DNA of 64,000 nucleotides from Sipunculus nudus (lineage: Eukaryota > Annelida > Sipuncula > Golfingiida > Sipunculidae), in assembly GCA_026874595.1 (NCBI GenBank), contig CM049308.1, positions 23,834,367-23,898,366 on the forward strand. Direction: 5' to 3'. The notes under the pieces were generated by a model. The model saw only the letters and a list, made by a program, of their open reading frames with translations. It did not search any database and was not told the DNA's origin. This document shows positions 55,605-59,915 of this stretch, in pieces (the first letter of the stretch is position 1; each line of letters begins with the position of its first letter). The position numbers were made by a program, and so were the translations under genes.

Positions 55605-58600
55605 CAATACACCACGCCCCATGTAACCATGCAATGTCCAGGGTAAATGCAATACATGCCCCATGTTACCATGTAATGTCCGGGGTGTACATGAAACACG
55701 ATATATATATATAACTACTACCATATAATGTCCGGGGTTAATACAAAACATGCTCCATGTTACCATGCAATGTCCGGGGTGTACATGAAACACGATTAGT
55801 GTTACCATGTAATGTTCGGGCTGAATATAACATGCCCCGAGTTACCATACAATGCTTGAATGAAATTAAATGCCTCGAGTTACCAAAGAATGCCGGAGTA
55901 AATAATACATTCCCCGAGTTAGCATCCAATGTCCGGAGTGAATATATAACACGCCCTAACCTATCATGCAATGCCCAGAGTGTACATGAAACACGAACAG
56001 TGTAATTACCTTGAATGCCAGGAGACGCCCCGAGTAACCATACAATGCAGGAGCGAATATAAAATGCTCCGAGTTTAATACCACACAATGTCCAGAGTAA
56101 ATATGACACGTCCCAATTTGACATGCAATGTCCGGAGTGTACATGTAACACAAACAGTGTTAACTTGAATGTTCAGACTGTACATAAAACATGACACATG
56201 TTATCATGCAATGTCTCGAGTGAATAAAAAACCACGTCGTTTCCAACCATACAATGTCCGGAATGTATGTGAATGTCCGGAGTGTACATGAAACACACCC
56301 ATGCGGCCATGGAATGACGAGACATACTTAAAACATGTCTAATAAAACTATAAAATGTCCAAAATGAATATAAAATACGCCCTATGTTGCTGTACAATGT
56401 TCGGAGTGAATATAATACGCCCGATTTACCATCCTAGTGTGAATATAGAACCGCGTCCTCTTTAACTATGTGCAATGTTCGGAGTGTACATGACACACAA
56501 CAAGTGTTGCCTTGAATGCCCGAATTACCGTACAATGTCTTGAGTGAATATAACACACCCCTAGTTACCATGTAATGTTCAGAGTGTAAATAAAAGCATC
56601 CTATATTATCATACAATGTCCGGAGTGTACAAAACACGCCCGTGTCACCACACAATGTCCGAATGAAACAAAACACACCCCGTGTTATCATGCAATGCCC
56701 GGACTATACATAAAACATGCCACATGTTCGGGGTATGCATAACCATGCGCCAAGAAAATGTTCCAAGTGTACATAAAATACTCCCCATATAACCATACAA
56801 AGTCCGGAGTGTACAAAACACGCCCATATCACAATACAATACCCGGAGTGAAACTAAACACGCCCCGGGTTGGCATGCAATGCCCGGACTATACATAAAA
56901 CATGCCACATGTCCGGGGTATGCATAACCATGCGCCAAGAAAATGTTCCAAGTGTACATAAAATACTCCCCGTATTACCATACAAAGTCCGGAGTGTACA
57001 AAACACGCCCATATCACAATACAATGTCCGGAGTGAAACTAAACACGCCCCGTGTTAGCATGCAATACCCGAACTATACATAAAACATGCCACATGTTCG
57101 GGGTATGCAAAACCATGCGCCAAGAAAATGTTCCAAGTGTACATAAAATACTCCCCGTGTTACCATACAAAGTCCGGAGTGTACAAAACACGCCCATATC
57201 CTAATACAATGTCCGGAGTGAAACTAAACACGCCCCGTGTTAGCATGCAATACCCGGACTATACATAAAACATGCCACATGTTCGGGGTATGCATAACCA
57301 TGCGCCAAGAAAATGTTCCAAATGTTTATAAAATACCTCCGAATTACCATACAAAGTCCGGAGTGTACAAAACACGCCCATATCACAATACAATGTCCAG
57401 AGTGAAACTAAACCCGCCCCGTGTTAGCATGCAATACCCGAACTATACATAAAACATGCCACATGTTCGGGGTATGCATAACCATGCGCCAAGAAAATGT
57501 TCCAAATGTACATAAAATACTCCCCGAATTACCATACAAAGTCCGGAGTGTACAAAACACGCCCATATCACAATACAATGTCGAGAGTGAAACTAAACCC
57601 GCCCCGTGTTAGCATGCAATACCCGAACTATACATAAAACATGCCACATGTTCGGGGTATGCATAACCATGCGCCAAGAAAATGTTCCAAATGTACATAA
57701 AATACTCCCCGTATTACCATACAAAGTCCGGAGTGTACAAAACACGCCCATATCACAATACAATGTCCGGAGTGAAACTAAACACGCCCCGTGTTAGCAT
57801 GCAATACCCGAACTATACATAAAACATGCCACATGTTCGGGGTATGCAAAACCATGCGCCAAGAAAATGTTCCAAGTGTACATAAAATACTCCCCGTGTT
57901 ACCATACAAAGTCCGGAGTGTACAAAACACGCCCATATCCTAATACAATGTCCGGAGTGAAACTAAACACGCCCCGTGTTAGCATGCAATACCCGGACTA
58001 TACATAAAACATGCCACATGTTCGGGGTATGCATAACCATGCGCCAAGAAAATGTTCCAAATGTTTATAAAATACCTCCGAATTACCATACAAAGTCCGG
58101 AGTGTACAAAACACGCCCATATCACAATACAATGTCGAGAGTGAAACTAAACCCGCCCCGTGTTAGCATGCAATACCCGAACTATACATAAAACATGCCA
58201 CATGTTCGGGGTATGCATAACCATGCGCCAAGAAAATGTTCCAAATGTACATAAAATACTCCCCGAATTACCATACAAAGTCCGGAGTGTACAAAACACG
58301 CCCATATCACAATACAATGTCCAGAGTGAAACTAAACCCGCCCCGTGTTAGCATGCAATACCCGAACTATACATAAAACATGCCACATGTTCGGGGTATG
58401 CATAACCATGCGCCAAGAAAATGTTCCAAATGTACATAAAATACTCCCCGAATTACCATACAAAGTCCGGAGTGTACAAAACACGCCCATATCACAATAC
58501 AATGTCCAGAGTGAAACTAAACCCGCCCCTTGTTAGCATGCAATACCCAAACTATACATAAAACATGCCACATGTTCGGGGTATGCATAACCATGCGCCA

Positions 58601-59915
58601 AGAAAATGTTTCCAAATGTACATAAAATACTCCCCGAATTACCATACAAAGTCCGGAGTGTACAAAACACGCCCATATCACAATACAATGTCGAGAGTGA
58701 AACTAAACCCGCCCCGTGTTAGCATGCAATACCCGAACTATACATAAAACATGCCACATGTTCGGGGTATGCATAACCATGCGCCAAGAAAATGTTCCAA
58801 ATGTACATAAAATACTCCCCGAATTACCATACAAAGTCCGGAGTGTACAAAACACGCCCATATCACAATACAATGTCCAGAGTGAAACTAAACCCGCCCC
58901 GTGTTAGCATGCAATACCCGAACTATACATAAAACATGCCACATGTTCGGGGTATGCATAACCATGCGCCAAGAAAATGTTCCAAATGTACATAAAATAC
59001 TCCCCGAATTACCATACAAAGTCCGGAGTGTACAAAACACGCCCATATCACAATACAATGTCGAGAGTGAAACTAAACCCGCCCCGTGTTAGCATGCAAT
59101 ACCCGAACTATACATAAAACATGCCACATGTTCGGGGTATGCATAACCATGCGCCAAGAAAATGTTCCAAATGTACATAAAATACTCCCCGAATTACCAT
59201 ACAAAGTCCGGAGTGTACAAAACACGCCCATATCACAATACAATGTCCGGAGTGAATATAAACAAGCTCCGTGTTACCATGCAATGTCCGGACTATACAT
59301 AAAACACGCCCCATGTGAGGGATACGAAAAATCATGCGCCAAGTTAATGTTCCAAGTATACATAAAGCACACCAAATATTACCATACAATATCCGAAGTG
59401 TACAAAACACGCCCATGCCACCATATAATGTCAAAAGTGTATATAGACATAATCCATGTTACCATGCATGAAATGTCCTGAGTGTATATCGCACGCCTCG
59501 TGTTACCGTGCAATGTCCGGAGTGAAACTAAAATACGCCCAATGGAACCATTAAGGGGGCGGAGTGAAAATAAAATACACCCAATGTTACCATGCAATCA
59601 GTGTCCAGAGTATACATAAAACGCCAATTACACCATGCAATGTCCAGAGTTTATATAAAACACGCTCAATGTTACCAAAAAATGTTCCCAGTGTACATAA
59701 AACATCCCCATATTACCAAACAATGTCCGCAGTGGGCACTAAGCACGCCCCATTTTACCATGCAATGTCCTGAGTGAAAATAATCTAAATACACACAATG
59801 TCACCATGCAGTCAGTGTCCAGAGTGTGTGTAAACACGCCCATGTCACCATGCAATGTCCATCCAGAGTGTATATAAACTCCCGCTTTGTAACCATGCAA
59901 TGTCCGGGGTGCTCT
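55605..59915. repeat. Satellite array with ~37-bp monomers and a 185-bp higher-order core
   Basis: The array is made of variants of a monomer of about 37-42 bases centred on CAATGTCCGGAGTGTACAT and ending in ACACGCCC. Outer parts (55605-56683 and 59458-59915) hold diverged single monomers. The centre holds a homogeneous 185-bp higher-order unit. A short TA insertion interrupts the left side near 55700. Units are not a multiple of three bases and the short open frames inside rely on non-ATG starts, so it is not coding. Confidence 0.95.
56684..59272. repeat. Higher-order repeat core: 14 copies of a 185-bp unit
   Basis: Units start with GTTAKCATGCAAT (GTTGGC in one copy) at 56684, 56869, 57054, 57239, 57423, 57608, 57793, 57978, 58162, 58347, 58532, 58718, 58903 and 59088, a spacing of 184-186 bases. 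Each unit has five related monomers of about 38, 30, 37, 37 and 43 bases. Copies differ by only a few substitutions, unlike the flanks. A diverged fifteenth unit follows at 59273-59457. Confidence 0.93.

Follow-up and report, generated by a model that had tools for sequence, protein, structure and literature searches.

The segment at 55605-59915 of the window, the whole 64-kb stretch of DNA analyzed here, is an array built from a monomer of about 42 bp, within which a block of five monomers has been multiplied to 15 copies, probably by neutral out-of-register exchange or slippage, and which is best regarded as a local minisatellite. The window is animal DNA, likely from an invertebrate, and corresponds to C3:23834367-23898366 of an assembly of 1.43 Gb in 153 contigs, and is located at 23.9 Mb of a contig of 97.9 Mb; within this assembly, the array occupies C3:23889971-23894281. 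Based on the published definition of minisatellites (unit of 10-100 bp and array of about 0.5-30 kb; PMC5615363, PMC8122249), both the 42-bp monomer and the 4.3-kb array are of minisatellite size, and the present copied unit of 185 bp exceeds the range of 10-100 bp. The array is likely an ordinary locus-specific minisatellite that has acquired a higher-order core.

Wraparound alignment to the monomer consensus resolved 55605-59915 into a single head-to-tail array of 4.3 kb with a total of 113 monomer rows, all in one orientation, of which 75 make up the fifteen full units, with 24 on the left, 12 on the right and one additional partial row at each end. Some of the row boundaries are approximate (one 60-bp row carries 18 inserted bases, and other rows are as short as 28 bp). 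Analysis of the window by TRF recovered a period of 185 bp at 56605-59439, with 15.3 copies, 95% matches and a score of 4926, in agreement with the alignment, and the tandem array with higher-order structure, described at this position in an earlier note on the same DNA, is thus real. A profile of the monomer matched 101 times within 55.5-60.0 kb, without exception on the + strand; elsewhere in the window it gave only six weak matches with E values of 2.5-7.8, none above chance. The monomer length of the flanks is about 42 bp, since 27 of the 36 flank rows are 39-44 bp long with a mode of 42 bp; the value of about 37 bp previously assigned to the flank monomers is the mean inside the core unit only, in which one of the five monomers is cut to about 29 bp.

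The higher-order core at 56605-59377 is composed of 15 full units of 185 bp, each containing five related monomers as the earlier note had proposed (about 39+41+40+29+36 bp, with the fourth truncated at its start). Over the 186 columns of the unit alignment, the numbers of differences from the consensus are 17, 12, 5, 13, 0, 2, 5, 13, 1, 0, 3, 1, 0, 1 and 30 for U01 to U15, respectively. The homogeneous part of the core is formed by U02-U14 (56789-59192, + strand), thirteen units of 184-186 bp with 0-13 differences from the consensus, which differ from each other by 0-18 of the 186 columns. On the left side of these stands U01 (56605-56788, + strand), an outer higher-order unit with 17 differences, and on the right side U15 (59193-59377, + strand), an edge unit with 30 differences, which is followed by the remnant of a sixteenth unit. 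Of the fourteen nearly identical 185-bp units counted previously, the near identity holds for thirteen, and the number of units has to be corrected to 15 full units and a partial one, with U01 and U15 more diverged than the rest.

Monomers inside one core unit are 41-76% alike, suggesting that they diverged before the block was amplified, and the identity along the core rises from 0.41 at a lag of one monomer to 0.94 at a lag of five monomers. The monomers within a unit are therefore far more diverged than successive units are from each other, as expected of a higher-order repeat (HOR). The fourth monomer shows a global identity of 0.41-0.49 to the other four, which is no better than that of shuffled monomers (0.45), and fits the forward monomer consensus locally with a score of 12.5, a value reached by none of 2,000 shuffles. 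An inverted origin of this fourth monomer was rejected because the forward consensus fits and the reverse consensus does not (p 0.38).

Traces of block copying are visible within the core. A four-unit block of 739 bp is duplicated at 56953-58136 (+ strand), in which 56953-57397 and 57692-58136 share the same 445-base sequence; U03 and U07, and likewise U04 and U08, show 0 differences. Identity was also found among U05, U10 and U13, and among U09, U12 and U14. The exact runs within the core measure 207 bases at a distance of 185, 269 at 370, 429 at 556 and 445 at 739, that is at distances of one to four units, and suggest that between one and four units were copied at a time.

Both flanks are made of diverged monomers of about 42 bp on the + strand. 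In the left flank (55605-56604), the rows show a mean identity of 73% to the monomer consensus, and TRF detected there a 94-bp repeat of 1.8 copies at 55626-55796; in the right flank (59378-59915), where the monomers follow the remnant of the sixteenth unit, the mean identity is 79%. Pairwise identity between flank monomers is 59% on the left and 66% on the right, compared with 45% for 300 pairs of shuffled monomers. The row alignment, the unit differences and these flank identities together support the description of a homogenized higher-order center with diverged monomeric edges. An older order of five monomers may be traceable in the flanks. In favor of it, of the six lags tested in the right flank, that of five monomers shows raised similarity (p 0.004); against it, the order of the core monomers fits the right flank in three cuts only at ranks 4, 11 and 9 of 24 permuted orders. 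In the left flank, none of ten lags showed raised similarity (lowest p 0.066), and the core order performed no better there than permuted orders, with rank 8 of 24 for the whole flank and ranks 7 and 8 for its halves.

The organization described above was probably generated by unequal sister-chromatid exchange or slippage, which would copy blocks of about one to four units, and by which five mutually diverged monomers would have become the copied block inside an older monomer array. Turnover in tandem arrays tends to be frequent in the middle and rare at the ends, where the copies grow old; the edges of this array would likewise be the older part, because exchange should remove and replace the central copies more often. 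A neutral simulation was performed in a total of 1,800 runs under 18 settings, each run starting from 60 diverged monomers with copied blocks of 1-6 and no selection. An HOR of at least four copies arose in 302 of the 1,800 runs, and in 268 it was flanked on each side by three or more other monomers. The frequency of HOR ranged from 1 to 42 of 100 among the 18 settings, and in a previous simulation, in which the mutation rate saturates, HOR appeared in only one of 60 runs, indicating that the outcome depends on the settings. Since an HOR core arose under neutrality, no selection is needed in principle. According to the model of Smith, DNA without constraint becomes tandemly repeated through out-of-register exchange, which then continues to copy the repeats (PMC8122249). 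At the human minisatellite D1S80, the observed mutations fall near the center of the array (PMC3356730).

A more specific mechanism was considered from the structure of the unit itself. In the core, monomer 3 is partly complementary to monomer 4, so that the two make up an imperfect inverted repeat of about 15 bp; none of 2,000 shuffles was as good. U15, which was not amplified, shows no inverted match between monomers 3 and 4 (p 0.81). The array might then be an HOR caught at birth, in which this five-monomer block became the copied unit because the drift of its third and fourth monomers had produced an inverted repeat that would stall replication and invite slippage, a scheme to which we attach little probability. 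The folded segments of U01-U05 and U10 gave z values of -0.39 to -1.38, none of which is significant, and that of U15 gave +1.76. The lowest folding energy, -12.4 kcal/mol, belongs to U02, a diverged outer unit, and the most copied units reach -9.9 kcal/mol; the ordinary folding energy and the position of its minimum in an outer unit weaken the proposed role of the hairpin, which stays a guess. Furthermore, the core units seem to share a single ancestor, and a link between hairpin and amplification would therefore rest on a single event.

Neutral copying at one locus, the reading preferred here, has a rival in the satellite interpretation of the earlier note, under which the array could be an outlying short piece of a satellite family with its main blocks at centromeres or heterochromatin. 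The head-to-tail HOR with diverged monomeric edges agrees with such a family, and a unit of 185 bp is close to the size of a nucleosome. In the search of the 1.43-Gb assembly, however, all 11 matches of the query 56500-57100 and all 14 matches of the query 59378-59915 were located inside the array, and no large array elsewhere was found among the matches of these two queries. The earlier note had itself stated that confinement to this locus would make the array a local minisatellite rather than a satellite family, and a local minisatellite is the best reading of the result. The evidence for restriction to one locus is strong but not complete, given that the search skips very common words and scores the best candidates only, and that the queries covered the start of the core and the right flank. 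Examination of twenty 10-kb stretches, taken at round coordinates on three contigs, gave no hit of the monomer profile at E 0.1, and no exact match to the CENP-B box was present on either strand of the 64-kb window. Neither many copies nor long arrays at more than one locus, the marks of a satellite family, were thus detected by the two genome queries and the 200-kb sample, and a satellite family is considered very unlikely, with the reservation that collapsed satellites may be missing from the assembly. None of the PMC papers contained any of four 14-base words taken from the monomer; this agrees with the previous remark that no named satellite of this sequence is known, and is a weak literature test since the main text of papers rarely includes sequences.

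Judged from the 200-kb sample, this genome is rich in tandem arrays. In the twenty stretches of 10 kb, 20 arrays had a length of 100 bp or more and a period of 15 or more, and two of these, both shorter than 300 bp, were flagged as nested. Five of the stretches include an array of at least 1 kb, with units of 52 bp (L022, 1-10000), 32 bp (L027, 1-6780), 53 bp (L032, 4765-9998), 180 bp (L019, 3680-9888) and 338 bp (L035, 3159-5531), altogether about 30.6 kb or about 15% of this small sample. For the 338-bp array, TRF gave also a period of 167 bp over 2.3 copies. In four of the five large arrays, identity is flat with lag and no higher-order period was detected up to 800 bp, which suggests that HORs as large as the present one are rarer in this genome than arrays without higher-order structure. 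Several other repeats were observed within the window: a second small HOR at 38844-39133, with 49-bp monomers (63% matches) and a 96-bp dimer doubled at 98%; TRF minisatellites at 51951-52260 (52 bp, 6.1 copies) and 38050-38179 (33 bp, 3.9 copies), neither of which matched the array in self-BLAST of the window; and a pair of interspersed repeats at 39597-39870 and 50388-50658, in opposite orientation and 75% identical.

The array could also be the tandem-repeat core of a mobile element resembling the HINE/Helentron elements of oysters, in which such elements spread short satellite-like arrays over the genome (PMC7492417). A short dispersed repeat is indeed located at 59935-60031 (+ strand), at a distance of 20 bp from the right end of the array. 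Seven other matches to it, 74-92 bp long and 74-78% identical, are distributed over five other contigs. Five of these seven other copies were read with about 1.5 kb on each side, and none of the five was accompanied by the monomer array; two weak hits of the monomer profile (E 0.65 and 0.95) were noted at 0.7-1.4 kb from them. Dispersed copies carrying the array, as known for HINE/Helentron elements, are thus lacking at the five loci, and the two genome queries placed the array at one locus only. Between the 400-bp flanks of the array, the direct and inverted similarity scores were 7 and 9 against shuffle means of 9.2 and 9.1, a comparison from which subterminal repeats of 11-12 bp, as in HINE, could escape, and self-BLAST of the window at E 1e-4 gave nothing linking the left and right flanks. 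Taken together, the absence of flank-to-flank similarity above shuffles, of a self-BLAST link and of the array at the five dispersed-repeat loci read led us to reject a mobile-element origin, which is highly improbable. As a separate observation on the dispersed repeat, the window copy and four of the five read copies (L014-L018, near 1501-1592) contain a box one letter from AGATGGCGCTGC, which is reminiscent of a CTCF core.

The neutral local minisatellite has also to be distinguished from an array kept for a function, for instance as clustered binding sites or as a boundary element near a homeobox gene. Three exons of a homeobox gene are predicted on the + strand of the window at 12139-12930, 18688-18975 and 29441-29737, the second and third with Pfam homeodomain matches at 18688-18972 and 29441-29734, which together span the Pfam homeodomain. 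Search with the exon 1 protein gave six relatives, and the gene is presumably of the Msxlx type by likeness. The array begins 26 kb past the last homeobox exon; the predicted exons as a whole are 26-43 kb away, and those with the homeodomain 26-37 kb, a distance that, like the position along the contig, is only a proxy for placement relative to heterochromatin or the centromere. The columns of the flank monomer are unequally conserved (chi-square 156 on 41 df), so that some constraint on the array remains conceivable, but those that are conserved show no grouping into a block (permutation p 0.19). A unit of 185 bp is not a multiple of three, and therefore a repeated reading frame is not kept; the two tested ORFs over the array, as well as 10 other ORFs of the window, gave no Pfam match. 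Neither an Rfam match at gathering score nor a tRNA is present in the window, and as single-strand DNA one unit folds no better than shuffles on either strand (z -0.98 and -1.30). Based on the lost frame, the absence of Pfam, Rfam and tRNA matches and the ordinary folding, both coding sequence and structured RNA were rejected. The strict G-quadruplex pattern gave 24 overlapping matches on the + strand of the window, among which none of the ten listed lies in the array, and no match on the - strand; the loose pattern gave 1 and 10 matches in the array. A functional array is regarded as extremely unlikely, and we infer that no selected function is attached to the repeats.

False duplication of the 739-bp block by the assembly, to which the identity of U03-U04 and U07-U08 could be ascribed, is scarcely credible, because mis-assembly would produce neither the gradient of divergence among the remaining units nor edges that have diverged, and the doubt that it leaves is limited to the exact copy number in this one assembly.

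The value of the array as a discovery is small. It is rather a clean, small example of how an HOR unit may form inside an older array. Models of HOR birth are hard to check in megabase centromeres; they might be tested on a single locus such as this one, which can be read through completely and in which the duplicated blocks are still recognizable.

Among known repeat systems, the central repeats of the oyster HINE/Helentron elements (Cg_HINE) are similar in being short satellite-like arrays in an assembled invertebrate genome (PMC7492417), but they are dispersed in mobile elements with flanking modules, neither of which was found here in the tests made. Higher-order units, mostly dimers, are also described outside primates, in beetles and other insects (PMC5615363); those belong to satellites, whereas the present array was found at one locus. 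The architecture of primate alpha satellite (PMC5615363, PMC8122249) is similar with respect to diverged monomers amplified as blocks, a homogeneous HOR center and single monomers outside. In contrast to it, the monomers of the array measure 42 bp instead of about 170 bp, its 15 units stand at one locus instead of in large centromeric arrays, and the window has no exact CENP-B box, an element that alpha satellite carries in many units. The likeness is one of process only and no kinship is claimed; an alpha-satellite-like architecture does not by itself imply a satellite or a centromere. The array is also similar to euchromatic minisatellites (VNTR) such as human D1S80, which share a unit of 10-100 bp, an array of a few kb and a single locus (PMC5615363, PMC8122249), together with copy changes near the center of the D1S80 array (PMC3356730), but are different with respect to the copied unit, which in the present array now comprises five diverged monomers.
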